A stretch of 64,000 nt of DNA from Halichondria panicea (lineage: Eukaryota > Porifera > Demospongiae > Suberitida > Halichondriidae): contig NC_087381.1 of NCBI RefSeq assembly GCF_963675165.1, forward strand, positions 1,240,001 to 1,304,000. Direction: 5' to 3'. The notes below the pieces were generated by a model. It searched no databases and was not told where the DNA came from. It worked only from the letters and a program-made list of their open reading frames with translations. The position numbers and the translations under genes are program-made. The first letter of the stretch is position 1. Each line of letters starts with the position of its first letter. Shown piece after piece: positions 13,985 to 62,534 of the stretch.

Positions 13985-15336
13985 ATGGATCCAAATGTTG
14001 CCTACAATGTTGTGCATGCTAACAACAGAAGAGACACACAAGCTCCCATATCGCAGGAAAACATCGCTTACAATATCCACCAGAGAAGTCTCACCCAAAC
14101 AGATAATGAGTACAGTACCATTGAGAACACTGGATACATAGAGCATAATACTGCTGGAGATACTAAATCTACCGAAAGTAGTGTCCTGGACAACAAAAGC
14201 AACACAAAGAGAATAAGGCAAAAAGTGGCTAAAAATGAATCTGGTAAAAAATGGTTTGCAATTCTTGTCGTCGTAGCTTTTGTTCTGTCTCTGTTGGTAG
14301 CTGTGGCAGCACTGGTGTACACCAATATAGAGTTGAAGAACCAGATGATTAGTACTAATAAGCAAGTACAGTCTACCAATGAGCAACTGAACAACCAATC
14401 CAGTCAACTCAGCAATTCAATCGTAGCTCTTTCAAGCAAGATTTCCGAGCAAAACAAACATATTTTTAAAAATCTCAATGATGCACAGTCTGTCCTTGAA
14501 GAACTGGAGCCACTTTATCTTGGAACAATCAACAACCCAGCTAGCTCTTGCAGTGATATCCCTCAAGACCGACCATCTGGAAAATACTGGATTGCCACTG
14601 ACAGTACTAGCTCTCCTGTTCAGGTCTACTGTGACATGAATCGAACAAGCTGTAGCTGCAACACTGCAGGAGGATGGATGAGGGTAGCCAACCTTGACAT
14701 GACCGATCCCAACCAAAACTGCCCAGAGGGATTGAGACTGGTAACCAGGACAGAACCACCACTGCGTACTTGTGGCCGAGTAGAAGAACCAGGATGTACT
14801 TCCACTACCTATTCAACGTATGGGGTGGAGTATTCGAAAGTGTGTGGTCGAATCATTGCATATCAAAATAGGACTCCGGATGCTTTCAATTCATATTTCG
14901 ACAACATATACTTTTATCTATTGATGATGTTTACGTTGATGGTGTGAGCCTAACCCATGGACAGTCGCCTCGTCAGCACATCTGGACATTTGCTAATGCA
15001 ATCGATGAAACTCAATCCGATTCCGAGGTATGTCCTTGTACAAGTTCTGACCTCCCCTACACTGGAGTTTTACCTCCCTTCATTGGTCAAGACTACTTCT
15101 GTGAAACTGGAAGCCGACAAGCATTTAGTCATAATACCTTCTACCCTGATGATCCACTCTGGGACAGTCAGGGATGCGGGGGTACCAGTACTTGCTGTGA
15201 GTTCAACAATCCTCCGTGGTTCTGCAAGCAACTCCCTCAACCAACTACAGACAATATCGAGTTGAGGCTTTGTTCTGATCAAGACATTGATGATGAAGAG
15301 ACACCCATTGAGATAATAGAGATGTACATACGCTAA
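13985..15336 (+). pseudogene. Array receptor copy 1 (MDPN type), frameshifted
   Basis: ATG 13985 follows the family leader. The frame encodes the cytoplasmic tail (AYNVV, EYSTI and GYIEH tyrosine motifs), the membrane helix (about residues 92-115) and a short stalk (ISTNKQVQSTNEQLNN). The ectodomain starts at NNPASSCSDI. At 14904-14915 the sequence ACATATACTTTTATC replaces the family AGAGCTTTATC, a net +2 change. It drops the frame to a TGA at 14947. The remainder (YVDGVSLTHG to IEIIEMYIR) continues open in another frame to TAA 15336. It is a pseudogene or an assembly artefact; the rest is well preserved. No introns. AATAAA lies at 15375. It is the inverted sister of the locus at 40655-41964, with which it shares the solo LTR and the MDPN start. 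Confidence 0.85.
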
Positions 15337-15590
15337 AATAGACATATCAAATCATTTTTAGAACTGAAGACATTAATAAATATTCTGTACAGCCGTTTGT
15401 AAGGCATATACATGTACAATGTACTGTAATCTCAAATTTAAATGATCATAACTTGAGTGCTGGTGGTCTTAGAAAGATCTGACCTCAAATATCCAATTAG
15501 CGCATCCAAAATTGAGAGCTAAGCACATGCACGATTTGAAATGGCTTCTTTTAAACTGAAAAAATAGTAATTTCAGCTCAACATGTATTC

Positions 15591-15918
15591 TAGTTGGGCG
15601 TGGCCCGACCATCCCTGACGGGAGGTCGGGTTTCAAGCCTATATGTAAGGATTTGTGTTGCTGGATTATGTAACACGCTGATAGCAGTGACAAAAAACCG
15701 AAAGTGACATCACTAGTATAGTATAAATATTCTTATTCTGAAGTGGGTGTTAAATAATTTTACCTTGCTTGCGGTTGCGCACTGGCCTGGACGTGACACA
15801 GACCACATTAGAAATGCTGCAATCTGATTGGGCTGCAAGTATAGTTGCAGCAAAGACAAATCCCAGATTGGCTTGAAACCCGTCTTCCCATCAGGGACAA
15901 TCGGGCCACGCCCAACTA
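15591..15918. mobile_element. TIR element, about 330 bp, copy 1 of 3
   Basis: The ends are inverted repeats TAGTTGGGCGTGGCCCGA ... TCGGGCCACGCCCAACTA, continuing into GGTTTCAAGC and its complement. The GC-rich tips contrast with the AT-rich interior. Other copies are 24319-24639 and 44440-44764. No coding capacity. This copy lies in inverted orientation relative to the two duplicated downstream blocks. Confidence 0.85.
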
Positions 15919-16334
15919 CATGTCTCAACATAATTATACATGTCTGTCTGCATATATACACTGGCAAGACAATAATTAATACAGGGAAGTGCAATTTTTA
16001 GAACAATAATTTGGAACCCCACCTGGGTGTTTATAGCAGAAACTATGAGCCATTTAGTTCCCCCAATAACTATTCTTGAGAATACAAGTTTTGTAATGAT
16101 GCTAGCTCTAGTCAACCAATGAAGTAGACCATGTGCCTTCGTGTCAGAAGTACCACATTCCCATGACATCATCGACTTCAGATCGTTTCATCATAGGTGT
16201 ATAGATACATAAAGTAGCCAGTTAAATGTGCCTGAGCACTACTAGCATGCATGCATGCAGGCACACTGAATTAAACACGCTTAAGAGGCTGATGCGATGT
16301 TCTGAATGTATTTAAGTCATCTGATGCCAAGATG

Positions 16335-16418
16335 AGTGGGAGGCTGCCCATTTTAGGTATATTCTTATTTGGGATTCATAATAATGCACCTGCGTACTAA
16401 AATGGGCAGCCTCCCACT
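16335..16418. repeat. Hairpin repeat (GTGGGAGGCTGCCCA), copy 1
   Basis: AGTGGGAGGCTGCCCATTTTA and its reverse complement face each other around an AT-rich loop. Longer copies are at 23791-23900 and 43894-44003. Single arms of the same motif occur upstream of several array genes. Confidence 0.75.
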
Positions 16419-16609
16419 CCTCTAACTGTAATCTTGGACTTAAAAACAAGAGACGATACCAATTATACTCATGCAGGACCCAGGGTATTTTGCCTGCTCT
16501 ATTCACATGTAGTATGTACATGTACGGATTTGTGTTCAACCAAAAGAAGTATGTAAACTCAAAAGAAAGGCCAAGAGAATAATATCACCAAACTGTAACT
16601 CACTCACAG

Positions 16610-16935
16610 ATGATTAGTACTAATAAGCAAGTACAGTCCATGAGGGAACAACTAAACAACCAATCCAGTCAACTCAGCAAATCCCAACTCTTTCAAGCAG
16701 CATTTCTGAGCAAGATAAAAATGATAAATATCAGTCTAGAGCATCCTATCTCAATGACGTATACAGTCTAACTGGAGCCATGCACTTTATCTTGGAACAA
16801 TCAACAAACCAGCTAACTCTTGCAGTAAGCTCCCTCAAGGCTGACCATCTGGAGAATACTGGATTGCCACTGACACCACTATAATATTATAGCTCTTCTG
16901 TTCAGGTCTACTGTGACATGAATCAAACAAGCTAC
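16610..16935 (+). pseudogene. Receptor relic: stalk and start of ectodomain
   Basis: Sequence from ATGATTAGTACTAATAAGC to GAATCAAACAAGCTAC matches the stalk (STNKQVQS, EQLNNQSSQLS), the stalk/ectodomain junction and the fibrinogen-like opening up to CDMNQTS of the array family. It carries several indels and lacks both the N-terminus and the rest of the ectodomain. The same truncated relic occurs on the minus strand at 22882-23203 and 43310-43672, so it was copied along with its flanks. Confidence 0.75.
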
Positions 16936-17558
16936 AACATAAACATAGAGTACTGCAGTCAGAATTCCCGATTCTATAAAATTCGTACTTAAGCACTTAA
17001 AATGGGTAACCTTCCACACCACATTATAACAACCTGTAACTTTGTCTTCAAATGGGTTGTTGATTGTTCCAAGATAAATTTGTAGAGGAAATTAATCTAA
17101 TGCTGAACTGTATAAAACCATAATTATCAGCGTATCACTATGAGAACTACCGTTGTCGTAAACTAGCCGGGTGTGGTCAACTCTCCTGACTCCAAGAAAT
17201 TCAGTGCCCCCTCAAGGTATATTGAATATTGCATAGCTAGCTACATTTATACTAGCACTACAGGGATCAATAATTATGGTTGCCACATAATAATTATGTG
17301 AAACCACTATGGTGTGCATGTTAAAAGTTCCAAATGAATGAATCATCAAGCTGTCAGAACAATCATGCAAGATGCAAGCTTCCCACAATTCTCTTATAAC
17401 ATAACCTGTAACGGTTGGCGTCGATGACTTAAACACCTATATACGTAGAACGGAAATGCATGTATACGTACCGATTGAGTGCTGCACTTACTATAAAACA
17501 TATTCAGCTAAGTCTATATATAGTAGCAGCCTCTCAATTTTGAGTCAGTGGCAGAATT

Positions 17559-18015
17559 ATGGAGCTAAACGTTGCCTATATACGATGTGCATGAATTATT
17601 TTACATTACGTTGATGGTGTGAGCCTAACCTATGGACAGTCGCCTCGTCAGCACATCTGGACATTTGGGAATGCACTTAATGAAACTCGCTCCCATACAG
17701 CGGCATGTCTCTGCACAAGACCTGACCATTCCTACACTGGAGTTGGACCTCCCTTCATCGGTCAAGATTACTTCTGTGAAACTGGAAGCCGACAGTACAT
17801 TAGTTATAATAACGGTATCTTCTACTGATGATCCACTCTGGGACGGTCAGGAATGCGGGGGTACCAGTACTTGCTGTGGGTTCAACAATCCACCGTGGTT
17901 CTGCAAGCAACTCCCTCAACCAACTACAGACGATATCGAGTTGAGGATTTGTGGTGATGACGACATTAGTAATAAAGACACACCAATTGAAATAGTTGAG
18001 ATGTACATACGCTAA
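17559..18015 (+). pseudogene. Receptor copy with large internal deletion
   Basis: The family leader and ATG 17559 (MELNVAY) are followed almost directly by the distal ectodomain from YVDGVSLTYG, so about 0.85 kb (rest of the tail, helix, stalk and first half of the ectodomain) is missing. The first frame ends early (IRCA, stop). The ectodomain part is open from 17619 to 17828. It then loses 2 nt at TTCTACTGATG (family TTCTACCCTGATG) and continues in a second frame from DDPLWDG to IEIVEMYIR and TAA 18015. Well-preserved sequence suggests recent inactivation. An upstream TATAAAA near 17,492 and leader show that the promoter was retained. Confidence 0.85.
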
Positions 18016-19937: not shown

Positions 19938-21188
19938 ATGGAGCTAAACACTGCCTACAAAGTTGCGCACTCCAGCAAGAGAAGAGAAACACAAGCCATT
20001 GCATTGCAAGGAAACACTGCCTACAATATCTATCCTACCCAAGATAATGGCTACACTATGGTTGAGAACAATGAGAGAGAAACGTTTGCATCGAAAAATA
20101 ACACAGCCTATGCAATAAACAGAGAAGTGTTTACAACAGAAACTAATTCCACCTCCGACGTTCTGAGCAATACAAACAAAAAAAGGCAAGGATGTGCTAA
20201 AAATGGATGTACTAAGAAGTGGTTTGCAATCTTTACCGTCCTAGCTATTGCTTTTTCGTCTCTGTTAGTAGCTGTGGCAGCACTTGTGTACACCAATATA
20301 GTGTTAAAGAACCAGGAGGATCAGTCAATGACGGAACAACTAAATAACCAATCCAGCACAATTGAGCCTTTTAATCTTGGAACAATCAACAACCCAGCAA
20401 GCTCTTGCAGTGACATATCTCAAGATCGATCATCTGGAGAATACTGGATTTCCCCTGACACTAGCTCTCCTGTTCAGGTTTACTGTGACATGAATCGAAC
20501 AAGCTGTAGCTGCAACACTGCAGGAGGATGGATGAGGGTAGCCAACCTTGACATGACTGATCCTAACCAAAACTGCCCAGAGGGATTGAGACTGGTAACC
20601 AGAACAGAACCACCATTGCGTACTTGTGGCCGAATAGAAGGACCAGCACGATGTGTGTCTACTACCTATTCAACTTATGAGGTGGAGTACTCAAAAGTTT
20701 GTGGTCAAATCATTGGATATCAAAGTAGTACTTCAGATGCTTTCGATCAATTCTTCAAAAACAGATCTTTATCTATTGATGATGGTTATGTTGATGGTGT
20801 GAGCCTAACCCACGGACAGTTGCCTCGTCAGCACATCTGGACATTTGTTAATGCAATCGATGAAATTCACTCCAATGAATTAGTATGTCCTTGCACAAGA
20901 CCTGACCTCCCCTACACTGGAGTTGTACCTCCCTTCATCTGTCAAGACTACTTCTGTGAAACTGGAAGCCAGCAAAAACATACATTTACTTTCTACCCTG
21001 ATGATCCACTCTGGGACGGTCAGGGATGCGGGGGTACCAGTACTTGCTGTGAGTTCAACAATCCACCGTGGTTCTGCAAACAACTTCCTCAACCAACTAC
21101 AGACGATATCGAGTTGAGGCTTTGTTCTGATCAAAGCATTTATGATGAAGAGACACCCATTGAGATAATAGAGATGTACGTACATTAA
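19938..21188 (+). CDS. Array receptor, intact, 416 residues, short stalk
   Basis: An intact single exon. Residues 1-94 are a cytoplasmic tail with tyrosines 7, 29, 32, 39 and 58 (TAYKVA, TAYNIY, NGYTMV, TAYAIN) and a basic KKRQGCAKNGCTKK before the membrane. The helix is at about 95-118. There is no Leu before it that could act as a signal cleavage site, so type II topology is expected. The stalk is only about 25 residues (NQEDQSMTEQLNNQSSTIEP). The ectodomain (about 150-416) opens with a fibrinogen/COLFI-like NNPASSC...SGEYW...VYCDMNRTSCSC. It continues through GGWMRVANLDMTD, CGRIEG, VDGVSLTHG, HIWTF, DYFCETGS, DPLWDG, TCCEFNNPPWFCKQLPQPTT and IELRLC to an acidic tail. It differs from paralogues at short loops (for example KHTFTFY after ETGSQQ). 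A cell-surface recognition or adhesion role is inference. Confidence 0.85.
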   Translation: MELNTAYKVAHSSKRRETQAIALQGNTAYNIYPTQDNGYTMVENNERETFASKNNTAYAINREVFTTETNSTSDVLSNTNKKRQGCAKNGCTKKWFAIFTVLAIAFSSLLVAVAALVYTNIVLKNQEDQSMTEQLNNQSSTIEPFNLGTINNPASSCSDISQDRSSGEYWISPDTSSPVQVYCDMNRTSCSCNTAGGWMRVANLDMTDPNQNCPEGLRLVTRTEPPLRTCGRIEGPARCVSTTYSTYEVEYSKVCGQIIGYQSSTSDAFDQFFKNRSLSIDDGYVDGVSLTHGQLPRQHIWTFVNAIDEIHSNELVCPCTRPDLPYTGVVPPFICQDYFCETGSQQKHTFTFYPDDPLWDGQGCGGTSTCCEFNNPPWFCKQLPQPTTDDIELRLCSDQSIYDEETPIEIIEMYVH

Positions 21189-21226
21189 AATAGACATATT
21201 GAATCATTTCTAGAACTGAAGACATT

Positions 21227-24909: not shown

Positions 24910-25315
24910 TTAGCGTATGTACATCTCTATTATCTCAATGGGTGTCTCTTCATCATCAATGTCTTGTGTACACCAGTGCTGCCACAGCTGCTAACAGAGA
25001 CAGAACAAAAGCTACGACGGCAAAAATTGCAAACCACTTTTTAGCACATCCTTTCCTTTTTTTCTTTGTATTGCTCAGAACGTTGGAGGTGGAATTACTT
25101 TCTGTTATATTCGTTTCTCCGCTTATTGCATAGGCTGTGTTAATTTTTGATGCGAACGTTTCTCTCCCATTGTTCTCAACGACACTGTAGCCATTATCTT
25201 GGGAGGAATATCTCTCATCTCGAGAAATTTTGTCGTTATTGTAAGCAGTGTCTTGTGTTTCTCTTTCTCTTCTGTTGTTAGCATACACAACATTGTAGGC
25301 AGTGTTTGGTTCCAT
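24910..25315 (-). pseudogene. Receptor copy reduced to tail plus membrane helix
   Basis: ATG 25315 opens a 119-codon frame ending at 24956. It has the full cytoplasmic tail (tyrosines at 7, 25, 36, 43 and 62 in MEPNTAYNVV, DTAYNND, ERYSSQD, NGYSVVE and TAYAIS contexts), KKRKGCAKK, a complete membrane helix, and then YTRH and a stop. The next bases are the very end of the family gene (complement of GATGATGAAGAGACACCCAT to TAA at 24910-24912). One deletion of about 0.87 kb relative to 45040-46287 therefore removed the stalk and ectodomain, with TTG/TG at the joint. The promoter and leader are kept. It is listed as a pseudogene, but a 119-residue membrane-anchored tail with no ectodomain could still be made. 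Confidence 0.8.
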
Positions 25316-25829
25316 AATTCACTGTTGAAACTCTGCCACTGACTTGAAATAGAGAGGCTGTTACTGTATAGACTTATTGTAGTTGCTGTGTGTTATACAG
25401 TGCAACATGCCCTCGGTGCATTTCCCTTCTAGGTTTGTCTAATTGATATCTCCTTATTCAGTATGTGTTTAAATTATCAATGCCAACAGTTACAGGAGAA
25501 TTGTGGGAGGCTTGTGGTATAATTTATGGTGATTCTACCACTTGCATGTTAATTTGTTTGGACCCCTTGCTCATTTTGGCACCTATAACACACCATAATA
25601 TGCAATGTTTGTACAGAGCAGGACGATATTGATTCCTCGTATCGCCATAATTATGATAGAGAGAGAGTATTGAACGTAGGCATACTGTGCTATCAGATGT
25701 ATGCGGAGAGTAACGTGACTTCCTGTATCTGTTACAAGCTTGAAATTTGCACACTGACCAATCCAAGCGTGGGTGATGTCATCTATCAAGAAAGTAGATT
25801 ATGTCACCCACACTTGGATGGGTTGATAG

Positions 25830-25894
25830 ATTACATCTTCTCTTTCTCTTCTGTTGTTAGCGTGCACAACATTGTAGGCAATGTTTGGATCCAT
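25830..25894 (-). pseudogene. 5' relic of a receptor gene
   Basis: The leader and ATG 25894 are followed by codons for MDPNIAYNVVHANNRRERE. The sequence then runs into unrelated repeat (the GATTACATCACCCACAC palindrome arm) and soon reaches a stop. Only the promoter, leader and first 20 or so codons survive. It begins MDPN, like 13985 and 41964. Confidence 0.7.
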
Positions 25895-27594: not shown

Positions 27595-28944
27595 TCAGCG
27601 GATGTATATTTCAGCAATCTCAATCGGTATGTCTTCATCATCTATGTCTTGATTGAAACAAAGCCTCAACTCAATATCGTCTGTAGTTGGTTGAGAAAGT
27701 TGCTTGCAGAACCACGGTGGATTGTTGAACTCACAGCAAGTACTGTTACCCCCGCATCCCTGACCATCCCAGAGTGGATCTTCAAAATAGAAGGTATCAT
27801 TAAAGAGCTGACGGCTTCCAGTTTCACAGAAGTAGTCTTGACGGATGAATGGAGGTACAACTCCAATTTCGGGACGGTCACTTATTGTGCAGGGACATAC
27901 CGCTAAATCCATAGAGCTATCTTCGTGAAGTGCACCAGCAAATGTCCAGATGTGCTGACGAGGCAACCGTCCATGGGTTAGGCTCACACCGTCAACGTAA
28001 CCATCATCAATAGATAAATTTCTGTTATTGAAATATTGAGCGAAAGCATCTGGAGAACCATTTTGATATGCAATTATTCGACCACAAACTTTTGAATACT
28101 TCACCCCATACGTTGAATAGGTAATAGAAATGTTACAGTAGCTTCCTTCCATTCGGCCACAAGTACGCAGTGGTAGTTCTTCCCTGATTACCAGTCTCAA
28201 TCCAGCTGGGCAATTTTGGTTTGGATTGGTCATGTCAAGGTTGGCTACCCTCATCCATCCTCCTGCAGTGTTGCAGCTACAGCTTGTTCGATTCATGTCA
28301 CAGTAGACCCGAACAGGAGAGCTAGTACTGTCGGTGGCAATCCAATATTCACCAGATGGTCGGTCTTGAGGGATGTCACTACAAGAGCTTGCTGGGTTGT
28401 TGATTGTTCCAAGATAAAGTGGCTCCAGTTCTTCAAGAATAGACTGTATGTCGTTGAGATTTCTCAAAGTATATTTGTTTTGCTCGGAAATGTTGCTTGA
28501 AAGAGCTAGGATTGAATTGCTGAATTGACTGGATTGGTTGTTCAGTTGCTCGTTCATGGACTGTAATTGCTTATTGGTACTGATCATCTGGTTCTTCAAC
28601 TCTATATTGGTGTACACCAGTGCTGACACAGCTACCAACAGAGACAAAACAAAAGCTACGATGACAAGAATTGCAAACTGTTTTTTGCCATATTCATTTT
28701 TCTCCAATTCTTGCTTTATTCTCTTTGTGCTGCTTTTGTTTTCCAAAACACTGTCCGTAGATTTAGTATCTTCAGTAGTATTATGCTCTATGTATCCAGT
28801 GTTCTCAACGGTACTGTACTCATTATCTGTTTGGGTGAGACTTCTCTGGTTGATATTGTAAGCAGTGTTTTCCTGCAATGCAGTGGCTTGTGTTTCTCTT
28901 CTTTTGTTAGCGTGCACAACATCGTAGGCAGTGTTTAGCTCCAT
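27595..28944 (-). CDS. Array receptor, intact, 449 residues
   Basis: Single exon from ATG 28944. The cytoplasmic tail (1-88) has tyrosines 7 (TAYDVV, a TxYxxV switch-like pattern), 29 (TAYNIN), 43 (EYSTV) and 51 (GYIEH). A basic stretch (KRIKQELEKNEYGKK) precedes the helix at about 89-111. The stalk (112-175) is a single STNKQLQSMNEQLNN-type unit followed by FSNSILALSSNISEQN and RNLNDIQSILEELEP. The ectodomain (about 180-449) has the NNPASSC and SGEYWIATDS opening, cysteines at 188, 215, 222, 224, 245, 262, 270, 287, 350, 352, 373, 397, 403, 404, 413 and 429, and the acidic DIDDEDIPIEIAEIYIR end. Its variable loops read GSYCNIS, HEDSSMDLAV and RQLFNDTFYFE. NRT at 218 could be glycosylated. 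Family function is unknown to me. Confidence 0.85.
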   Translation of the reverse strand: MELNTAYDVVHANKRRETQATALQENTAYNINQRSLTQTDNEYSTVENTGYIEHNTTEDTKSTDSVLENKSSTKRIKQELEKNEYGKKQFAILVIVAFVLSLLVAVSALVYTNIELKNQMISTNKQLQSMNEQLNNQSSQFSNSILALSSNISEQNKYTLRNLNDIQSILEELEPLYLGTINNPASSCSDIPQDRPSGEYWIATDSTSSPVRVYCDMNRTSCSCNTAGGWMRVANLDMTNPNQNCPAGLRLVIREELPLRTCGRMEGSYCNISITYSTYGVKYSKVCGRIIAYQNGSPDAFAQYFNNRNLSIDDGYVDGVSLTHGRLPRQHIWTFAGALHEDSSMDLAVCPCTISDRPEIGVVPPFIRQDYFCETGSRQLFNDTFYFEDPLWDGQGCGGNSTCCEFNNPPWFCKQLSQPTTDDIELRLCFNQDIDDEDIPIEIAEIYIR

Positions 28945-31170: not shown

Positions 31171-31202
31171 CATACAATTCTCAACCTGTATCAACTATAT
31201 GA

Positions 31203-35845: not shown

Positions 35846-36150
35846 AATGTTATTGGTACTGATCATCTGGTTCTTCAACTCTATATTGGTGTACACCAGT
35901 GCTGCCACAGCTAGCAACAGAGACAGAACAAAAGCTATGACGGAAAAAAATTACAAGCCACTTTTTAGCACATTCATTTTTAGCCAAGCCTTGCCTTGTT
36001 CCACTATTGGTATTGCTCAGATGTATGCCAACCACTTCTTATCACATTCATTTTTAGCATATCCTTAATTGCCTTTTTTTCTTTGTATTGCTCAGAACAT
36101 CAGAGGTAGAATTAGGTTTTGTTGTAAACACTTCTCTGTTTATTTCTTGT
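35846..36150 (-). pseudogene. Receptor relic: tail and membrane-helix region
   Basis: Complementary sequence for the helix (ALVYTNIELKNQMIS-type codons at 35850-35930), the basic juxtamembrane segment and a tail part (TTKPNSTSDVLSNTKKK-type) with frameshifts. A roughly 60-bp stretch around KKWLAxFF is partly duplicated. No ATG or ectodomain. A tiny inverted fragment of the same segment (AAAAAAGGCAATTAAGGATA) sits at about 37,288-37,316. Confidence 0.65.
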
Positions 36151-43309: not shown

Positions 43310-43672
43310 GCTATAGCTCATGTCACAGTAGACCTGAACAGGAAAGCTAGTATTGTCAGTGGCAATCCAGTATTCTCCAGATGCTCAGCCTTGAGGGAGC
43401 TTACTGCAAGAGCTGGTCTGGTTTGATTGTTCCAAGATAAAGTGGCAGATTGTATACGTCATTGAGATAGGATGCTATTGGACCTAACTCAGCAATAATG
43501 GACTGTACGTCATTGAGATAGGATGCTATTGGACCTAACTCAGCAGTAATGGACTGTACGTCATTGATATTTCTCATTTTTATCTTGCTCAGAAATGCTG
43601 CTTGAAAGAGTTGGGATTTGCTGAGTTGACTGGATTGGTTATTTAGTTGCTCCCTCATGACTGTACTTGTTT
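43310..43672 (-). pseudogene. Receptor relic: stalk and start of ectodomain
   Basis: Paralogue of the relics at 22882-23203 and 16610-16935. It differs by a tandem duplication of about 60 bp (ACGTCATTGAGATAGGATGC ... at 43,456 and 43,509), giving repeated NDVQSITAELGPIASYL-type codons. An open frame of 85 codons remains but has neither helix nor ectodomain. Confidence 0.72.
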
Positions 43673-45039: not shown

Positions 45040-46287
45040 TTAGCGTATGTACATCTCTATTATCTCAATAGGTGTCTCTTCATCATCAATGTCTTGATCA
45101 GAACAAAGCCTCAACTCGATATTATCTGTAGTTGGTTGAGGGAGTTGCTTGCAGAACCACGGTGGATTGTTGAACTCACAGCAAGTACTGGTACCCCCGC
45201 ATCCCTGACCATCCCAGAGTGGATCATCAGTGTAAAAGGTATTATGACGAAATGCTTGTCGACTTCCAGTTTCACAAAAGTAGTCTTGACCGATGAAGGG
45301 AGGTACAACTCCAGTGTAGGGGAGGTCAGGTTGTGTGCAGGGACAAACCTCGGCATCGGATTGAATTTCATCGATTGCATTAGCGAATGTCCAGATGTGC
45401 TGACGAGGCGACTGTCCATGGGTTAGGCTCACACCATCAACGTAAACATCATCAATAGATAAAGCTCTGTTATTGAAATATGGAGTGAAAGCATCCGGAG
45501 TACTACTTTGATATGCAATGATTCGACCACAAACGTTTGAGTACTCCACCCCATAAGTTGGAAAGATAGTGGAAGTACACACTGCTCGTCCTTCCATTCG
45601 GCCACAAGTACGCAATGGTGGTGTTGTCCTGGTTACCAGTCTCAATTCAGCTGGGCAGTTTTGGTTGAGATCGGTCATGTCGAGGTTGGCTACCCTCATC
45701 CATCCTCTTGCAGTGTTGCAGCTACAGCTTGTTCGATTCATGTCACAGTAGACCCGAGCACGAGAACTAGTGTGAGGGGCCATCCAGTATTCTCCAGATG
45801 GTCGGTCTTGAGAGATATCACTACAAGAGCTTGCTGGATTGTTGATTGTTCCAAGATTAAAAGACTCAATTGTGCTGGATTGGTTATTTATTTGTTCCCT
45901 CATTGACTGATCTTCCTGGTTTTTCAACTCTATATTGGTGTACACCAGTGCTGCCACAGCTACTAACAGAGACAGAACAAAAGCTACGACGGCAAAAATT
46001 GCAAACCACTTTTTAGCACATCCTTTCCTTTTTTTCTTTGTATTGCTCAGAACATTGGAGGTGGAATTACTTTCTGTTATATTCGTTTCTCCGCTTATTG
46101 CATAGGCTGTGTTAATTTTTGATGCGAACGTTTCTCTCCCATTGTTCTCAACGACACTGTAGCCATTATCTTGGGAGGAATATCTCTCATCTTGAGAAAT
46201 TTCGTCGTTATTGTAAGCAGTGTCTTGTGTTTCTTTTTCTCTTCTGTTGCTAGCATGCACAATATTGTAGGCAGTGTTTGGTTCCAT
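45040..46287 (-). CDS. Array receptor, intact, 415 residues, short stalk
   Basis: Single exon from ATG 46287. The cytoplasmic tail (1-92) has tyrosines 7 (TAYNIV, TxYxxV pattern), 25 (TAYNND), 36 (ERYSSQ), 43 (NGYSVV) and 62 (TAYAIS), then KKKRKGCAKK. The helix is at about 93-116. The stalk is short (NQEDQSMREQINNQSSTIES). The ectodomain (about 145-415) is complete: PASSCSDI, SGEYWMAPHT, VYCDMNRTSCSC, GWMRVANLDMTD, the Cys-rich core and the DIDDEETPIEIIEMYIR end. One change from the family is ARGWMR in place of AGGWMR. Variable loops read GRAVCTS, QSDAEV and RQAFRHNTFYT. It is the intact counterpart of the truncated copy at 24910-25315. AATAAA (complement) lies at 45002-45007. With 19938 it forms the short-stalk subclass. 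Confidence 0.86.
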   Translation of the reverse strand: MEPNTAYNIVHASNRREKETQDTAYNNDEISQDERYSSQDNGYSVVENNGRETFASKINTAYAISGETNITESNSTSNVLSNTKKKRKGCAKKWFAIFAVVAFVLSLLVAVAALVYTNIELKNQEDQSMREQINNQSSTIESFNLGTINNPASSCSDISQDRPSGEYWMAPHTSSRARVYCDMNRTSCSCNTARGWMRVANLDMTDLNQNCPAELRLVTRTTPPLRTCGRMEGRAVCTSTIFPTYGVEYSNVCGRIIAYQSSTPDAFTPYFNNRALSIDDVYVDGVSLTHGQSPRQHIWTFANAIDEIQSDAEVCPCTQPDLPYTGVVPPFIGQDYFCETGSRQAFRHNTFYTDDPLWDGQGCGGTSTCCEFNNPPWFCKQLPQPTTDNIELRLCSDQDIDDEETPIEIIEMYIR

Positions 46288-50590: not shown

Positions 50591-50950
50591 TTTCAGCGTA
50601 TGTACATCTCAACTATCTCAATGGGTGTGTCTTCATTGCTAATAAACTCATCACCACAAAGCCTCAACTCGATATCGTCTGTAGTTGGTTGAGGGAGTTG
50701 CTTGCAGAACCATGGTGGATTGTTGAACTCACAGCAAGTACTGGTACCCCCGCATCCCTGACTGTCCTATCATCAGAATAATAGACGATACGCTTACTAC
50801 GAATAATGAACAGTCGGCTTCCAGTTTCACAGAAGTAGTCTTGACTGATGAAGGGAGGTACAACTCCAGTGTAGGTGAGGTCAGGTCTTGTGCAGGGACA
50901 TCCCTGTCTATTGGATTGAGTTTCATCATGTGCACCAGCAAATGTCCAGA

Positions 50951-52500
50951 TTTTTTTATTTTTTTTTATTTTTTTTTTTATTAAAGATTTAGCAATTAAT
51001 TGCAAGGATACACAAATAGCTACAAAGCTAGGGTGAAGTGAGTCCTATAACATACGTTTTAATAGTTACAACATGTCAACTAAATGTGAATACAGATGTG
51101 ACTTAAATGAACTTATACTAGTACAGTCTACTAAAGTAAAGTCCTTGTGGCTAACCAGCCTATTCCATATTGTGATTGCATGCGGAAAAAATGAGAATTT
51201 GTAAAAGAATGTTCTACATTGGTAGTAGCCTCGATCCCAGGCCGAGTTTTCGCTTTTATAACGGTTAGGCGAACAACTGGGCCTGGTACTAGTTGTCTGC
51301 GCATGCGTCAGTCGTTCGTCAGATTCTGACGAATGGATATTCTCGTTCACTTTCGTGACATTTATATTCGTGTACTATCGTGTACTAGAAGTCAGTTCCC
51401 GTTTTATCATTATTGGAATCGATTGGAATGGCTCTTAGCTGAAGCTTCTCTCTTCTCTGAAGCTTATTCTGAAGACTGAACAACAAGTGAAGAGGTATAA
51501 AGCTTTGTCAAGCTTGTTAAGGTCAGATATTTTTGTGTGGGCCCTATGGCCGGCTATGCTATCAAGTCTTGTTCATGTTTGGCAAGAATGTAGGTAGACT
51601 ATAGTTTCATCATTAATATGGTGGATCAAGTGAAGAGTGTGAGCTAGAGAACTTGGTGCTGCCATCATCAGCTCGTCGACAATGACACTATAACCGAGAA
51701 ATTTAATATGTATAGATCTACACGTATTTAAAATGTCTACTTCTCTGTACAGGAGCAATGGCTAATATCCAGCTATCCCAACAGTGCTCCTCTTGGCTAT
51801 ACTAACGGACGAGACTGGACAGTTTGAGGTAAGGGTTTAACCGTCTTTGGTTTCTTTTAATATTGTCCTATACTCACAGACACAGGACTGGAGTATGACC
51901 TGCTCATTCGAGCGTTGCTGGGTAGCTCAGAGACATCAAGAGAATCTACGTTTTCTCAAGCAATGAGTTACGAGTTGGGGCCTAGAATCAGAGAAGTCCA
52001 GCAGCCTGCTAAATCTTTTTGAAACGTAATTTGAAGGCATTCAATCATCCTGAAGTTGCCCTGGGTCACTGTAATTGTGCTGCAGCACAACTGGCAACTC
52101 CCCAGGCCTTTTTGAAGCAGCTCCCTATGTCCATCTTTTGTGTACTCACTCTGTGCATTTTCTGTGTACAAATTTCTATTATTGATTTATTAAATATTTT
52201 TGCCGACCACAAATATACAATGAAAATTTGACGCATGTGCAGACAACTAGTACCAGGCCCAGTTGTTCGCCTAACCGTTATAAAAGCGAAAACTCGGCCT
52301 GGGATCGAGGCTACATTGGTAGGGGACCAGAGTAAAACAGTTAACAGTTCTACTACTGTACGTCATATTTCTCTTGGTTGCTGGGTTGTTTGGGAAGTCA
52401 GTTAGATTGTGTAGTATTTTGAAAAGGTGGCATAGCACCGCAGCAAGGCGCCTCAGCTGCAGAGAAGGAAGCCTGGTCAAGGTGAGCAATTCTTCACTTT
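50951..52500 (-). mobile_element. 5'-truncated LINE fragment with poly(A) tail
   Basis: On the minus strand the insertion enters the receptor after GTCAGCACAT and ends in an A/T-rich tail with long A runs (complement of 50,951-50,985) before TCTGGACATTTG of the receptor resumes. Joining 52,500-52,323 to 51,225-51,066 gives one frame: LPSLQLRRL, LCHLFKILHNLTDF, FTLVPYQC|RTFFYKFSFFP, HAITIWNRL, SFKSHLYSHL and a stop. This matches the C-terminal segment that follows reverse transcriptase in many non-LTR retrotransposons (FFP...WNxL...FKxxL). No reverse transcriptase core is present, so the copy is 5'-truncated. It is interrupted by the element 51226-52313. Confidence 0.8.
51226..52313. mobile_element. 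1,088-bp TIR element with captured exons, nested
   Basis: Inverted ends start TAGCCTCGATCCCAGGCCGA and extend about 85 bp (through GTTAGGCGAACAACTGGGCC). A perfect 9-bp direct repeat CATTGGTAG flanks it (51217-51225, 52314-52322). The first ten bases and the 9-bp duplication match the element 21678-22534, so they are one family. The centre has two exon-like pieces. One ends PTVLLLAILTDETGQFE before GAG|GTAAGG (about 51,834). The other starts after ACAG near 51,890 and reads GLEYDLLIRALLGSSETS, then SQAMSYELGPRIREVQ. A second copy of this cargo lies at 60165-60575 without these ends. It has no transposase, so it is non-autonomous. Confidence 0.8.
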
Positions 52501-53410
52501 TCAAATGTGCTGACAAGGCGACTGACCATAGGTTAAGCTCACACCATCAACGTAAACATCATCAATAGATAAAGATCTGTTGGAGAAATATGGTGTAAAA
52601 GCATCCGGAGTACTACTTTGATATGCATTGACTCGACCACAAACTTTTGAATATTCAACCCCATAATGTTGAAAAGGTAATAGACACACATCCTGCTTGT
52701 CCTTCCACTCGGCCACAAGTACGCAATGGTGGTTCTGTCCTGGTTACCAGTCTCAATCCCTCTGGGCATTTTTGGTTGGGATTGGTCATGTCAAGGTTGG
52801 CTACCCTCATCCATCCTCCTGCAGTGTTGCAGCTACAGCTTGTTTGATTCATGTCACAGTAGACCTGAACAGGAGAACTAGTACGGTCAGTGGCAATCCA
52901 GTACTCTCCAGATGGTCGGTCTTGAGGGATGTCACTGCAAGAGTTTGCCGGGTTGTTGATTGTTCCAAGATTAAAAGGCTCAATTGTGCTGGATTGATTA
53001 TTTAGTTGTTCCGTCATTGACTGATCTTCCTGGTTCTTTAACTCTATATTAGTGTACACCAGTGCTGCCATAGCTACTAACAGAGACAAAAAAGCAACAG
53101 CTAGGATGGCAAGGGTTGCAAACCACTTCTTATCACATTTATTTTTAGCACATCCTAATTGCCTTTTTTTGTTTGTATTGCTCAGAACGTCGGAGGTAGC
53201 ATTAGTTTCTGTTGTAAACACTTCTCTGTTTATTGCATAGGCGGTGTTATTTTTCGATGCAAATGTTTCTCTCCCATTGTTCTCAACCAGAGTGTAGCCA
53301 TTATCTTGGGTAGAATAGTTATTGTAAGCAGTGTTTCCTTGCAATGCAATGGCTTGTGTTTCTCTTCTCTTGCTGGAGTGCGCAACTTTGTAGGCAGTGT
53401 TTAGCTCCAT

Positions 53411-53496: not shown

Positions 53497-53499
53497 CTA

Positions 53500-54900: not shown

Positions 54901-54904
54901 TAAT

Positions 54905-56379
54905 TCAACGAACATAGATGTCAACTATCTCAATGGGTGTGTCTTCATTGCTAATACCCTCATCACCACAAAGCCTCAACTCAATATTGTCTGTAGTTGG
55001 TTGAGGGAGTTGCTTGCAAAACCACGGTGGATTGTTGAACTCACAGCAAGTACTAGTACCCCCGCATCCCTGACCATCCCAGAGTGGATCATCAGGGTAG
55101 AAGGTATTATGAATAATGAGCTGTCGGCTTCCAGTTTCACAGAAGTAATCTTGACCAATGAAGGGAGGCACAACTCCAGTGTAGGGGAGGTTAGGTCTTG
55201 TGCAGGGACACGTATAATTATCGGATCGAGTTTCATCAAGTGCACTAGCAAATGTCCAGATGTGCTGACGAGGCGAGTGACCATGGGTTAGGCTCACACC
55301 ATCAACGTAACCATCATCAATAGATAAATTTCTGTTAAAGAAATATGGAGCAAAAGCATCTGGAGTGCTACTTTGATATGCAATGATTCGACCACAAACT
55401 GTTGAATACTTTACCCCATACGTTGAATAAGTAGTGGACACACATCCCGGTGCATGTTTGCCACAAGTACGCAATGGTGGTTCTGTCCTGGTTACCAGTC
55501 TCAATCCCTCTGAGCAGTTTTGGTTAGGATCAGTCATGTCAAGGTTGGCTACCCTCATCCATCCTCCTGCAGTGTTGCAGCTACAGCTTGTTTGATTCAT
55601 GTCACAATAGACCTGAACAGGAGAGCTAGTACTGTCAGTGGCAATCCAGTATTCTCCAGATGGTCGGTCTTGAGGGATGTCACTGCAAGAGCTTGCTGGG
55701 TTGTTGATTGTTCCAAGATAAAGTGGCTCCAGTTCTTCAAGAATAGACTGTATGTCGTTGAGATTTCTCAAAGTATACTTGTTTTGCTCGGAAATGTTGC
55801 TTGAAAGAGCTAGGATTGAATTGCTGAATTGACTGGATTGGTTGTTCAGTTTCTCGTTGGTAGACTGTACTTGCTTATTGGTACTGCTCAGCTGCTCAGA
55901 AAAGTTGTTTTGAAGGAGCAAAATTGCATCATTGAGTTGAGCTTGTAGGATTTGAATCTGTTAACTGGATTGGTTGTTTAGTTGCTCGTTTATGGACTGT
56001 ACTTGCTTATTAGTACTGATCATTTGATTCTTCAACTCTATATTGGTGTACACCAGTACAGCCACAGCTACCAACAGAGACAGAACAAAAGCTACTATGA
56101 CAAGAATTGCAAACCGTTTTTACCATTTTCATTTCTAGCCACTTCTTGCCTTATTCTCTTTGTGTTGCTTTTGTTGTCAATACTTTCGGTAGATTTATTA
56201 GTATCTCCAGCAGTATTATGCTTTATGTGTCCAGTGTTCTCAATGGTACTGTACTCATAATCTGTTTGGGTGAGACTTCTCTGGTTGATATTGTAGGCAG
56301 TGTTTTCCTGCAATGCAGTGGCTTGTGTTTCTCTTCCTTTGTTAACGTGCACAACATCGTAGGCAGTGTTTAGCTCCAT
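54905..56379 (-). pseudogene. Array receptor copy with frameshift and stop
   Basis: ATG 56379 begins MELNTAYDVVHVNKGRETQ with EYSTI and GHIKH motifs. In the codons before the helix, GGTAAAAACGG has one A fewer than the family GGTAAAAAACGG, so the frame ends at 56095. In the stalk, CAA has become TAA (SS, stop, QIQ) at about 55,962. From 55921 a 338-codon frame is intact through part of one 44-residue stalk unit and the whole ectodomain to NEDTPIEIVDIYVR. The ectodomain carries the short KHAPGCVS loop in place of RVEGxxGC, a form shared only with 60925-62534. Other loops: RSDNYT and RQLIIHNTFYP. The homopolymer loss could be a sequencing error, but the nonsense codon is independent evidence. 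Confidence 0.85.
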
Positions 56380-57650: not shown

Positions 57651-57657
57651 GTGTAAT

Positions 57658-59022
57658 TCAGCGTACATAGATCTCAACTAGCTCAATGGGTGTGTCTTCA
57701 TTACTAATTCCCTCATCACTACAAATCCTCAACTCGATATCGTCTGTAGTTGGTTGAGGGAGTTGCTTGCAGAACCACGGTGGATGGTTGAACTCACAGC
57801 AAGTACTGGTACCCCCGCATCCCTGACCGTCCCAGACTGGATCATCAGGGTAGAAGATGCTAAATTTAAACGTTTGTCGGCTTCCAGTTTCACAGAAGTA
57901 ATCTTGACCAATGAAGGGAGGTACAACTCCAGTGTAGAAGCGGCTAGGTCTTGTGCAGGGACATGCCCGTCTATCGAAAGCAGTTTCATCGATTGCATTA
58001 ACAAATGTCCAGATGTGCTGACGAGGCGACTGACCATGGGTTAGGCTCACACCATCAACGTAAACATCATCAATAGATAAAGTTCTGTTATAGATATATG
58101 GAGTAAAAGCATCCGGAGTGCTATTTTGATATGCAATGATTCGACCACAAACTTTTGAATACTCCACTCCATATGTTGAATAAGTAGTGGAAGTACATCC
58201 TGCTGGTCCTTCCACTTGGCCACAAGTACGCAGTGGTGGTGTCGTCCTGGTTACCAGTCTAAATGTTTCTGGGCAGTTTTGATTGGGATCGGTCATGTCA
58301 AGATTGGCTACCCTCATCCATCCTCCTGCAGTGTTACAGCTACAGCTTGTTCGATTCATGTCACAGTAGACCTGAACAGGAGAGCTAGTACTGTCAGTGG
58401 CAATCCAATATTCACCAGATGGTCTGTCTTGAGTAATGTCACTACAAGAGCTAGCTGGGTTTCCTATTCTTGTTCCAGGATAGAATGCCATTGGACCTAA
58501 CTCCGCAATAATGGACTGTACGTCATTGAGGTCTCGAATAATGATTTCATTTTGCTCAGAAATGTTACTTGAAAGAGCTAGGATTGAATTGCTGAGTTGA
58601 CTGGATTGGTTGTTTAGTTGTTCGTTCATGGACTGTATTTGCTTATTGGTACTGATCATCTGGTTCTTCAACTCTATATTGGTGTACACCAGTGCTGCCA
58701 CAGCTACCAACAGAGACAGAACAAAAGCTATGACGGCAAAAATTGCAAACCATTTTTTACCATATTTATTTTTAGCCACTTCTTGCCTTATTCTCTTTGT
58801 GTTGCTTTTGTTGTCCAAAACACTTTCAGTAGATTTAGTATCTGCAGCAGTATTATGCTCTATGTATCCAGTGATCTCAATGGTACTGTACTCATTATCT
58901 GTTTGGGTGAGACTTCTCTGGTTAACATTGTAGGCTATGTTTTCCTGCAATGCAGTGGCTTGTATTTCTCTTTCTCTTCTGTTGTTAGCGTGCACAACAT
59001 CGTAGGCAGTGTTTAGTTCCAT
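57658..59022 (-). CDS. Array receptor, intact, 454 residues
   Basis: Single exon from ATG 59022. The cytoplasmic tail (1-90) has tyrosines 7 (TAYDVV, TxYxxV pattern), 31 (IAYNVN), 45 (EYSTI) and 53 (GYIEH), then KRIRQEVAKNKYGKK. The helix is at about 91-113. The stalk has one STNKQIQSMNEQLNN unit, LSNSILALSSNISEQN and RDLNDVQSIIAELGPM. The junction is of the YPGTRIGNPASSC type, which it shares with 41964 and 62534. The rest is complete, from SGEYWIATDS to GISNEDTPIELVEIYVR. FNHPPW replaces FNNPPW. Variable loops read GPAGCTS, TAFDRRA and RQTFKFSIFYP. Its leader (GTAGAGTTTCAACAGTGAATT) is uninterrupted. Like the other intact members it is predicted to be a type II surface protein; ligand and pathway are unknown. 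Confidence 0.86.
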   Translation of the reverse strand: MELNTAYDVVHANNRREREIQATALQENIAYNVNQRSLTQTDNEYSTIEITGYIEHNTAADTKSTESVLDNKSNTKRIRQEVAKNKYGKKWFAIFAVIAFVLSLLVAVAALVYTNIELKNQMISTNKQIQSMNEQLNNQSSQLSNSILALSSNISEQNEIIIRDLNDVQSIIAELGPMAFYPGTRIGNPASSCSDITQDRPSGEYWIATDSTSSPVQVYCDMNRTSCSCNTAGGWMRVANLDMTDPNQNCPETFRLVTRTTPPLRTCGQVEGPAGCTSTTYSTYGVEYSKVCGRIIAYQNSTPDAFTPYIYNRTLSIDDVYVDGVSLTHGQSPRQHIWTFVNAIDETAFDRRACPCTRPSRFYTGVVPPFIGQDYFCETGSRQTFKFSIFYPDDPVWDGQGCGGTSTCCEFNHPPWFCKQLPQPTTDDIELRICSDEGISNEDTPIELVEIYVR

Positions 59023-59029
59023 AATTCAC

Positions 59030-60160: not shown

Positions 60161-60164
60161 TATC

Positions 60165-60575
60165 TCTTAATTAGGGCCCAAATTATTCGATCAGCAGTTA
60201 TCGAAATGAAAATGCACAGAGTGAGTACACAAAAGATGCACATAGGGAGCTGCTTCACAAAGGCCTGGGGAGTTGCCAATTGTGCTGCAGCACGATTACA
60301 GTGACCCAGGGCAACTTCAGGATGATTGAATGACTTTAAATTACGTTTCAAAAAGATTTAGCAGGCTGCTGGACTTCTCTGATTCTAGCCAACTCGTAAC
60401 TCAGTTATATTTTGCTTGAGAAAACATAGATTCTCTTGATGCCTCTGAGCTACCCAAAAATGCTCGAATGAGCAGGTCATACTCCAGTCCTGTGAGTATT
60501 CCAAAGACGATTAACCCTTACCTCAAACTGTCCAGTCTCGTCCGTTAGTATAGCCAAGAGGAGCACTGTTGGGAA
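60165..60575 (-). repeat. Second copy of the captured exon cargo
   Basis: In reverse complement this block matches about 51,772-52,150, the interior of the nested TIR element: the LTDETGQFE exon end and donor, the intron, LEYDLLIR and the CACAAAAGATGGACAT-like downstream part. The TAGCCTCGAT ends are absent here. It may be a decayed element, a different carrier or the remains of the source gene. At 60,500 the ACTCCAGTCCTGTGAGTAT stretch contains the exon 2 start. Point differences and small indels are scattered throughout. Confidence 0.7.
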
Positions 60576-60577
60576 GA

Positions 60578-60765
60578 GGGTATATTTCAAGGGTATAAAT
60601 GTTTGTGGTTTTTGCGGATTAGGCATGAACCGCGAACATTTATAACCGCGAATTTAATATTCCATGCATGCATGCTGCAAAAAAGGCGCTATTCCACGAA
60701 AATTAAATCCGCGAAAACCTTTCTAAAGGCACATCTGCGAAAATTTATACCCTCGAAATATACCC
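60578..60765. mobile_element. 188-bp TIR element
   Basis: GGGTATATTTCAAGGGTATAAATGTT and the complement of AAATTTATACCCTCGAAATATACCC form the ends. The interior contains several GCGAAAA/TTTCGC-type short repeats (CCGCGAACATTTATAACCGC, CGCGAAAACC). It abuts the cargo copy at 60165-60575. No coding capacity. Confidence 0.7.
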
Positions 60766-60924
60766 GCTATACGGTACGCTTTCTTAAGCGTGCACAGGTT
60801 ACACGATTAGTGTTCTTTGTAGGGGATTGCTACAGGTGTTCATATCAATACAACTGCTATATTATTCAGTTCTACTCTTGGTTCTAGAGCTAGCTACATG
60901 CAGTGTGTAAAAATGAAAAAGTGT

Positions 60925-62534
60925 TCAGAGGATGTATATTTCCACAATCTCAATTGGTATGTCTTCATCTGGAAGAGGTTGATTAGCACAAAGTCTCAAC
61001 TCGATATCGTCTGTAGTTGGTTGAGGGAGTTGCTTGCAGAACCACGGTGGATTGTTGAACTCACAGCAAGTACTGTTACTCCCGCATCCCTGACCATCCC
61101 AGAGTGGATCATTAGGGTAGAAGATACTAGCAATTTCCTGTCGGCTTCCAGTTTCACAGAAGTAATCTTTACCAATGAAGGGAGGTACAACTCCAGTGTA
61201 GGGGAGGTCAGGTCTTGTGCAGGGACATACCTCTGTATCAGAGCGAGTTTCATCGATTGCATTGATAAACGTCCAGATATGCTGACGAGGCGACTGTCCA
61301 TGAGTTAGGCTCACACCATCAACGTAAACATCATCAATAGATAAAGATAAATGAAGAGCATCTGGAGAACCACTTTGATATCTAATGATTCGACCACAAA
61401 CTTTTGAATACTCCACCCCATACGTCGAATAGGTAGTGGACACACATCCCGGTGCATGTCTGCCACAAGTACGCAATGGTGGTTCTTCCCTGGTTACCAG
61501 CATCAATTCCTCTGGGCAGTTTTGGTTGGGATCGGTCATATCCAGGTTGGCTACCCTCATCCATCCTCCTGTAGTGTTGCAGCTACAGCTTGTTCGATTC
61601 ATGTCACAGTACACCTGAACAGGAGAGCTAGTACTGTCAGTGGTATTCCAGTATTCTCCAGATGGTCGGTCTTGAGGGATGTCTTTGCAAGAGCTTGCTG
61701 GGTTTCCTATTCTAGTTCCAGGATAGAATGCCATTGGACCTAAATCCGTAATAATGGACTGTACGCCATTGAGGTCTCGAATAATAATTTCATTTTGCCC
61801 GGAAATGTTACTTGAAAGAGCTAGGATTGAATTGCTGAGTTGACTGGATTGGTTGTTCAGTTGCTCGTTGGTAGACTGTACTTGCTTATTAGTACTGCTC
61901 AGCTGCTCAGAAAAGTTGTTTTGAAGGAGTAAAATTGAATGACTGAATTGAGCTTGTAGGATTTGAATCTGTTGACTGGATTGGTTGTTCAGTTGCTCGT
62001 TGGTAGACTTTACTTGCTTATTAGCACTGCTCAGCTGCTCAGAAAAGTTGTTTTGAAGGAGCAAAATTGAATGACTGAATTGAGCTTGTAGGATTTGAAT
62101 CTGTTGACTGGATTGGTTGTTCAGTTGCTCGTTCATGGACTGTAATTGCTTATTGGTACTGATCATCTGGTTCTTCAACTCTATATTGGTGTACACCAGT
62201 GCTGCCACAGCTACCAACAGAGACAGAACAAAAGCTATGACGGCAAAAATTGCAAACCATTTTTTACCATATTCATTTTTAGCCACTTCTTGCCTTATTC
62301 TCTTTGTGTTGCTTTTGTTGTCCAGGACACTACTTTCGTTAGATTTAGTATCTCCAGCAGTATCATACGTTATGTATCCAGTGTTCTCAACGGTACTGTA
62401 CTTATTATCTGTTTGGGTGAGACTTCTCTGGTTGATATTGTAGGCAGTGTTTTCCTGCAATGAAGTGGCTTGTGTTTCTCTTTCTCTTCTGTTGTTAGCG
62501 TGCACAATATATCGTAGGCAGTGTTTAGCTCCAT
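60925..62534 (-). pseudogene. Array receptor copy, 2-nt insertion near start
   Basis: ATG 62534 gives MELNTAYD. The family GATGTTGTGCACGC then reads GATATATTGTGCACGC (about 62,508-62,513), two bases longer, so the tail frame is lost after codon 8. From that point a 526-codon frame is intact but lacks its own ATG until after the helix. It has HANNRRERETQ, TAYNIN, KYSTV, GYITYDT, a helix, and a stalk with one starter unit plus two full 44-residue repeats (SEQLSSANKQVKSTNEQLNN and similar). The YPGTRIGNPASSC junction and the complete ectodomain follow, to PLPDEDIPIEIVEIYIL. The loops are HAPGCVS, RSDTEV and RQEIASIFYPN, and DALHL is a shortened form of DAFxxYFxNR. The single small lesion may be recent, polymorphic or an assembly error. 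Had it been intact, this would be the second-longest stalk in the array. Confidence 0.82.

Follow-up and report, generated by a model that had tools for sequence, protein, structure and literature searches.

Sponges reject foreign grafts, and many of them harbour dense microbial communities; to our knowledge, little is known of the receptors used for recognition at their cell surfaces. Macrophage scavenger receptors, MARCO and collectin-12 are type II membrane proteins in which a coiled-coil or collagen stalk carries a binding head at the C-terminus, and FIBCD1, which together with ficolins and snail FREPs is counted among the fibrinogen-related proteins, is likewise of type II with a coiled coil. 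The sponge aggregation factor is among the large sponge families proposed for immunity or allorecognition. Immune-type expansions of SRCR and NLR genes have been put forward for the same roles, according to the available portions of PMC10855680 and PMC12909245, and the aggregation factor is mentioned in that of PMC5450542. The Botryllus FcoRs are type I receptors with Ig and sushi domains (PMC12065747, available text). The window analyzed here is the whole 64,000-nucleotide stretch C5:1240001-1304000 (contig NC_087381.1) of the sponge Halichondria panicea, in a genome of 131.5 Mb and 39 contigs represented by one assembly, and it holds a tandem array of one gene family whose products carry a cysteine-rich head on a membrane stalk.

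The family is best explained as a diversified repertoire of type II cell-surface recognition receptors, a reading that we consider probable because a conserved framework, selected loops in separate arrays, gene birth and death, mosaic copies, stalks of a trimer-forming type and tyrosine-bearing tails occur in combination. Each chain would consist of a tyrosine-bearing tail, one helix, a coiled-coil stalk that is of hendecad type and varies in length, and a head, whose conserved framework would present five to six hypervariable loops as a putative ligand-binding face. Binding of a ligand, on microbes or on other sponges, may cluster the chains, and the tyrosines of the clustered tails would then be phosphorylated and recruit SH2 proteins, for example a SHP-2-like phosphatase. 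The repertoire would be renewed by tandem duplication, recombination between copies and pseudogenisation, with secreted and collagen-stalked forms bearing the same kind of head.

Diversifying selection was evaluated with site codon models run in our own scripts rather than in a standard package, with FastTree branch lengths kept in proportion and scaled jointly. For 14 intact receptor ectodomains all gapped codons were dropped (254 kept), and for gap masking the codons within 2 of any gap were removed (212 kept); for all 19 domain-complete copies, codons gapped in more than 5 sequences were dropped (265 of 280 kept). The M1a versus M2a comparison of the intact ectodomains gave twice the log-likelihood difference (2ΔlnL) as 110 with one tree and 73 with four segment trees, falling to 53 and 38 after gap masking, and M8a versus M8 gave 98/68/48/35. 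The same M1a/M2a test yielded 141 and 90 for the 19 copies, while the 10 copies of cluster B alone, masked and fitted with three trees, reached 33 (15 for M8a-M8). In data simulated under M1a on four trees (12 replicates), the statistic did not exceed 5.2 if four trees were used for the fit, or 33.1 if the wrong single tree was used. Heads of membrane collagens, described below, gave 214/189/154 for 11 genes and 227/224/183 for 12, the latter with ω2 of 7.2-9.6 on 8-13% of codons; the simulated null (11-gene set, 10 replicates) was at most 6.9. The collagen set comprises 12 loci, one of which (L065, not broken) is absent from the 11-gene tests, the null and the overlap and mosaicism analyses, and a collagen open reading frame (ORF) whose head is not in frame (L042) was excluded from analyses. 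A third array, at C5:0.88-0.95 Mb (7 heads), gave 33/25, without a simulated null.

In these separate arrays the module shows strong diversifying selection, and the loop positions concerned overlap; ω2 is 3.5-18 across them. The ω profiles of receptors and collagens (11 genes) were correlated over 216 shared columns (Spearman 0.449; none of 206 circular shifts as high), and the 23 and 27 high-ω columns shared 10 positions, against a circular-shift mean of 2.7 and maximum of 7. In the numbering of a 449-aa product from the window, recurrent sites lie near 247-249, 267-268, 302-306, 343-348, 380-384 and 430-435; when masking was strictest, A348 and L380 alone stayed above 0.9. Diversifying selection on the ectodomain, as expected of an allorecognition receptor, was found. 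Recognition receptors under birth and death had been proposed in a preliminary description of this DNA made from the window's letters; that proposal stands as the best reading and is partly supported, loop selection having been detected separately in three arrays. Site-specific positive selection in the loops was a test that could have failed, and the reading passed it.

One gene family spans positions 13985 to about 62532 of the window, as had been described, and comprises 15 loci plus two small pieces, five loci being intact and two nearly so. About 17 loci had been counted earlier, with the same numbers of intact and nearly intact copies; at 50596-53410 an insertion of about 1.5 kb divides what is one copy, a locus that could be taken for two. 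Decay ranges, as proposed, from one frame break (13985-15333) through to relics. The loci, in window coordinates, are as follows.

13985-15333, plus strand: copy 1, one frame break; mosaic
16592-18012, plus strand: copy 2, pseudogene with several lesions
19938-21188, plus strand: copy 3, intact, short-stalk subfamily, 416 aa
22880-23119, minus strand: copy 4, relic covering profile positions 145-219
24965-25315, minus strand: copy 5, 5' relic covering positions 1-112; a further 5' piece at 25823-25894
27595-28944, minus strand: copy 6, intact, 449 aa
33194-35419, minus strand: copy 7, intact, 741 aa, with 132-bp (44-aa) repeats in a long stalk
35846-35947: transmembrane piece of another copy, beside copy 7
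40658-41964, minus strand: copy 8, pseudogene with a frame break and a stop
43310-43661, minus strand: copy 9, relic
45040-46287, minus strand: copy 10, intact, short-stalk subfamily, 415 aa
47067-48327, minus strand: copy 11, open ectodomain, one frame break in the tail; nearly intact
50596-53410, minus strand: copy 12, pseudogene split by the insertion (50960-52504)
54905-56379, minus strand: copy 13, open ectodomain, tail frame broken
57658-59022, minus strand: copy 14, intact, 454 aa
60928-62532, minus strand: copy 15, 536 codons from stop to stop, conserved ATG out of frame; nearly intact
37-1965, plus strand: membrane-collagen pseudogene with the same C-terminal module; broken collagen frame, terminal-inverted-repeat (TIR) element in the module, early end

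Each of the five intact copies (416, 449, 741, 415 and 454 aa) is one uninterrupted ORF and presumably a single exon. The insertion in copy 12 carries a long inverted-repeat pair (about 51225-51310 and 52230-52314, by eye) and a T-rich end. Relatedness within the family is far beyond chance: six other aligned window proteins are 71-79% identical to the 449-aa product, which has at least 111 matching places in its own genome, several per gene, clustered on C5, C13, C17 and C9 and otherwise scattered as singles. The array had been taken to end near 62534, which is not its boundary; it continues past the window edge to about C5:1.373 Mb, with five more intact copies (C5 1304619, 1312326, 1328320, 1334903 and 1371969). 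Receptor clusters on C5 lie at 0.88-0.95, 1.25-1.37 and 1.59-1.62 Mb.

The copies recombine. Fitting four contiguous segment trees to 14 copies raised the log-likelihood by 260, whereas none of eight random codon partitions gained more than 149; for 19 copies the gain was 363, against 179 for random partitions. The signal of mosaicism in the collagens was weak (81.6 against a random maximum of 75.8). Copy 1 is about 98% identical to copy 8 (the one ending at 41964) from about 13.6 kb to the stalk (about 14.4 kb), and from about 14.9 kb it is closest to copy 10 (ending at 46287) through the 3' part and 3' flank, so that it joins the tail and stalk of one subfamily to the head end of the other. 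The near-identical flanks of the preliminary description hold for this one pair, the 5' flanks of copies 1 and 8 sharing 98% identity over 437 bp, but not for the other aligned flanks of at least 100 bp, which share 67-88% (11 copies compared).

A tyrosine-bearing tail, one hydrophobic helix, a stalk rich in Q, N and S and a cysteine-rich ectodomain were present in each intact copy, and type II topology with a tyrosine tail, as previously described, holds by sequence. In the 449-aa product the tail covers residues 1-91, the transmembrane segment about 92-110, the stalk extends to about 180 and the ectodomain occupies about 184-449. Tails measure 86-104 residues in all but two of the 14 intact copies; those two, from the four-copy cluster C (C5:1.59-1.61 Mb), have tails of 124. 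One hydrophobic window (mean Kyte-Doolittle 2.6-3.3) follows the tail. Stalks vary from 33 to 369 residues in the eight copies measured. That of the 741-aa copy has a hydrophobic period of 3.65 residues, near 11/3 (0 of 300 shuffles as strong), and fits a hendecad coiled coil built from the 132-bp repeats. Coiled-coil and collagen stalks of such type usually trimerise, and the head is therefore probably trimeric.

Tail tyrosines were compared in an alignment of 17 tails, locus L034 being left out as it has no tail tyrosine. All 14 near tails keep two of the tyrosine columns, and 13 keep a third. Three remote paralogues encoded on other contigs retain 7 of 9 near-consensus tyrosine cells, against 39 of 164 other cells (Fisher P = 0.0015). 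At position +3, V or I follows the first tyrosine in 11 of 17 tails and the third in all 17; after the second, a polar residue is usual. AYN[IV][IV] is repeated four times in two of the four cluster-C tails. Strict motifs ([ILVS]xYxx[ILV] or TxYxx[VI]) occur in 11 of 18 tails, the excess over chance not being significant tail by tail in the window copies; four of the five intact window copies (33194, 27595, 45040 and 57658, not 19938) have one, always of the immunoreceptor tyrosine-based switch motif (ITSM) type. On contig C3, exons for SH2, SH2 and a protein tyrosine phosphatase (PTP) domain lie in a row at 8.4046-8.4063 Mb (gene not assembled), and the C-terminal SH2 exon has PTPN11 as best match (E = 4e-58); by this similarity an SHP-2-type effector is present in the genome, and the tails probably signal through SH2 proteins such as an SHP-2-like phosphatase. 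PTP exons have also undergone massive tandem expansion on C4, mainly at 0.04-2.6 Mb (176 PF00102 matches genome-wide, most of those listed on C4), a possible receptor-PTP repertoire.

The head consists of a fibrinogen-like YCD..GGW strip of about 45 residues followed by a cysteine-rich module of about 220. The statement that it belongs to no named Pfam family is borne out for the module, which, when tested as the collagen-type head of locus L040, had no Pfam match at E 0.01, but not for the preceding strip, which is fibrinogen-like and weakly COLFI-like. NCBIfam NF040941 matches the strip in all 15 aligned members, the member shown scoring 29.7 against a cut-off of 30. COLFI (PF01410) weakly matches the first 60 or so residues in 10 of 15 members (best E = 1.2e-7), covering only about positions 3-78 of a 233-position profile, short of the match over most of the profile by which membership would be judged. 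Fibrinogen_C matches just one of the 15 (E = 0.0076), a solved fibrinogen beta chain matches over only 48 positions (E = 0.002), and hhalign against ten fibrinogen-related domain proteins (FReDs) of the same genome aligned only 42 columns (probability 91.6%). No alignment to the whole FBG fold of about 220 residues (B and P subdomains) extended beyond about 60 positions in the PDB, Pfam and hhalign searches, which compare sequences only. By the sequence tests made, the family is neither FReD nor COLFI. The 15 aligned heads matched no Pfam lectin family beyond COLFI and Fibrinogen_C, and the collagen-type head tested matched none. Within the reach of pattern scans, no relatives were found in viral contigs or a prokaryote genome collection; a cnidarian skeletal organic matrix protein presumably carries a similar domain.

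At least three kinds of stalk carry the module, namely those of the type II coiled-coil receptors, of an array with apparent signal peptides and of type II membrane collagens. In the array at C5:0.88-0.95 Mb, five of seven heads follow an apparent signal peptide (by eye) and two have no visible start. The membrane collagens, each in one open frame, form arrays at C5:0.21-0.24 and 0.43-0.47 Mb; as expected of such proteins, a signal-anchor helix (by eye) precedes Gly-X-Y repeats (PF01391, E = 1.1e-18 in L039; 499-codon frame). They lack the COLFI-like part, the Collagen repeat being the sole match (L039). The module further occurs in a CUB protein and in short proteins that appear to have signal peptides. 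Among the matches listed (150 of 216 candidates scored), 32 reach 69% identity or more to the collagen head; every one is on C5, with 26 falling between 0.21 and 0.58 Mb. Module genes 50-59% identical to the collagen-type head were also seen at C15:0.98-1.00, 4.85-4.86 and 5.48-5.54 Mb, one in a frame of 1472 codons.

Intact relatives of the collagen pseudogene at 37-1965 include the collagens L039-L041. The long-TIR element within it occupies 1164-1774 and is flanked by an 11-bp direct repeat (1153-1163/1775-1785, by eye). An intron inside the module of this gene was ruled out, the supposed intron being this TIR element in a pseudogene, and a retrocopy origin of the tandem family was dropped once this became clear. 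Elsewhere in the window, an 18-bp repeat array of 2.4 kb (8307-10710) yields long repetitive ORFs and is unlikely to be a gene, a 172-aa ORF at 3853-4371 (minus strand) matches part of a protein kinase domain (Pkinase, E = 3.3e-15), and ORFs of 313 and 197 aa at 5222-6163 and 6622-7215 (plus strand) have no Pfam match at E 1. On C2, three silicatein-type active-site sequences lie within 11 kb; the one peptide tested had silicatein alpha as best match (E = 1.4e-11), which makes a siliceous sponge the most likely host.

Several observations weigh against a recognition repertoire signalling through its tails. The tail and transmembrane segment of 12 copies evolve almost neutrally (M0 ω = 0.95; M2a 2ΔlnL 16), and among the tyrosines in the tail of the 449-aa product there are signs of constraint at Y7 and Y29 only (posterior of the constrained class 0.70 for both; other residues averaged 0.31), not at Y43, Y51 or Y85 (0.26, 0.02 and 0.00). 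An excess of Y-x-x-hydrophobic over single-tail shuffles (P < 0.02) was found in 5 of 18 tails and in no window copy; 7 of 18 have no strict ITSM or immunoreceptor tyrosine-based inhibitory motif (ITIM), L034 is without any tyrosine, and the collagen-stalked forms have a short N-terminus without tyrosine motifs. Structure prediction from 17 window rows, one of the checks proposed earlier, was carried out and reached a mean predicted local distance difference test score (pLDDT) of 39, unusable for a fold search, so that a placement of the loops on one face can be proposed from the sequence only. The evidence base as a whole is the sequence of one assembly.

The nearest alternative is an innate repertoire of lectin-like proteins, similar to ficolins, collectins or scavenger receptors, whose heads would bind sugars on microbial or symbiont surfaces, the membrane forms serving capture or uptake and Y-x-x-hydrophobic acting as an endocytic sorting signal rather than as a phosphotyrosine dock; we regard it as a serious possibility, though somewhat short of probable. 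The same head occurs in soluble form (apparent signal peptide) and on collagen stalks, as is likewise seen in ficolins and scavenger receptors; some 45 residues ahead of the module are fibrinogen-like, and Y-x-x-hydrophobic also fits AP-2 signals. However, the repeated AYN[IV][IV] of two tails and the conserved tyrosine positions fit phosphotyrosine docking at least as well, and the heads tested gave no match to a Pfam lectin family apart from the two named above. Rather unlikely is the view that the first 1.62 Mb of C5 form an allorecognition complex, a polymorphic histocompatibility region whose ligands and receptors are encoded by the linked arrays. The collagen-head matches listed and the receptor clusters are linked on C5, and candidates in Hydractinia and Botryllus also carry ITIM, immunoreceptor tyrosine-based activation motifs (ITAM)/hemITAM or Y-x-x-I/L/V (PMC12065747, available text); yet the data come from one assembly, diversified paralogues are also found on C13, C17, C9 and C15, and the available text of an Amphimedon grafting paper (PMC5450542) uses fibrinogen and receptor 0 times and collagen once. 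The likelihoods given to these two alternatives overlap with that of the recognition repertoire, because both are versions of it. Microbial ligands are favoured by the soluble and collagen forms, while the linkage and the phosphotyrosine-type tails leave room for conspecific ones. It is unlikely, and offered as conjecture, that the first 1.6 Mb or so of C5 form a sponge self/non-self complex of tyrosine-tailed receptors, secreted heads, membrane collagens and SH2/SHP signalling; that its members share, in the unnamed head, a set of hypervariable loops like complementarity-determining regions is a conjecture of the same standing.

A structural adhesion or matrix family, in which membrane collagens and coiled-coil proteins build matrix and copy numbers churn with no recognition, appears improbable. 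The same module occurs on collagens and after a CUB domain, and the first part of the head is weakly similar to COLFI in 10 of 15 members, but the ω2 values reported above, at overlapping loops in separate arrays, are unexpected for a purely structural head and already disfavour this explanation. A match to a structural matrix protein family had been named beforehand as an outcome that would speak against recognition; it was found in part, as the same module ends membrane collagens, but the collagen link is not by itself contrary to recognition, because the collagens show even stronger diversifying selection. Very improbable indeed is an artefact by which relaxed pseudogenes, indel misalignment or recombination misled the codon models. 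Many copies are indeed dead, there are indels in the loops, the copies recombine, and a wrong single tree can by itself raise the statistic as far as 33; yet with intact genes only, gap masking and segment trees, 2ΔlnL was still 38 (P = 7e-9, chi-square) against a null of at most 5.2, and the collagen replicate was far stronger against its own.

Set beside the families named at the outset, the sponge receptors combine familiar and distinct traits. With FReD proteins (Fibrinogen_C) they have the YCD..GGW strip in common, but their remaining 220 or so residues do not align with FReDs, and true Fibrinogen_C domains form a tandem array of their own elsewhere in the genome (C6:4.16-4.21 Mb, 22 of 32 genome matches). 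With COLFI the weak match at the head start is common to both, but the collagen-stalked forms lack that part. The type II plan is that of scavenger receptors, MARCO and collectin-12; in the sponge family, both stalk types share one head, Pfam scans of the heads gave no SRCR or C-type lectin match, and the paralogues form a large, positively selected array. The SRCR, NLR and aggregation factor families of sponges are large too, but built of different domains. A survey by listed Pfam domains, like that in the available text of PMC12909245, would presumably not see the module. No description of the family was found in literature on sponge fibrinogen-like proteins, collagen, allorecognition, ITIM and diversifying selection, a partial coverage that is no proof of its being unpublished.

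Sponges are one of the earliest-branching animal groups, and the pattern observed is as expected of self/non-self or microbe recognition. The family provides concrete candidates, with a Pfam-less head common to membrane, secreted and collagen-stalked proteins and selected loops located residue by residue. It also suggests that membrane collagens can be diversified recognition molecules, beyond their role as scaffold; if the self/non-self complex conjectured above is real, cell-surface collagens would be polymorphic identity tags. Hydractinia Alr and Botryllus FcoR/fester are also clustered and diversified, with motif-bearing tails and SH2 machinery in the genome (PMC12065747, available text). 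Whereas the Botryllus FcoRs are of type I with Ig and sushi domains, the sponge receptors are of type II, and no Ig or sushi match was found in Pfam scans of their heads. The sponge case, if true, would extend the pattern of an ITIM/ITAM-type tail joined to an unrelated ectodomain that is seen in Botryllus and Hydractinia, and the SH2/SHP logic of cnidarian, tunicate and vertebrate recognition receptors would then reach the sponges with an unrelated binding domain.

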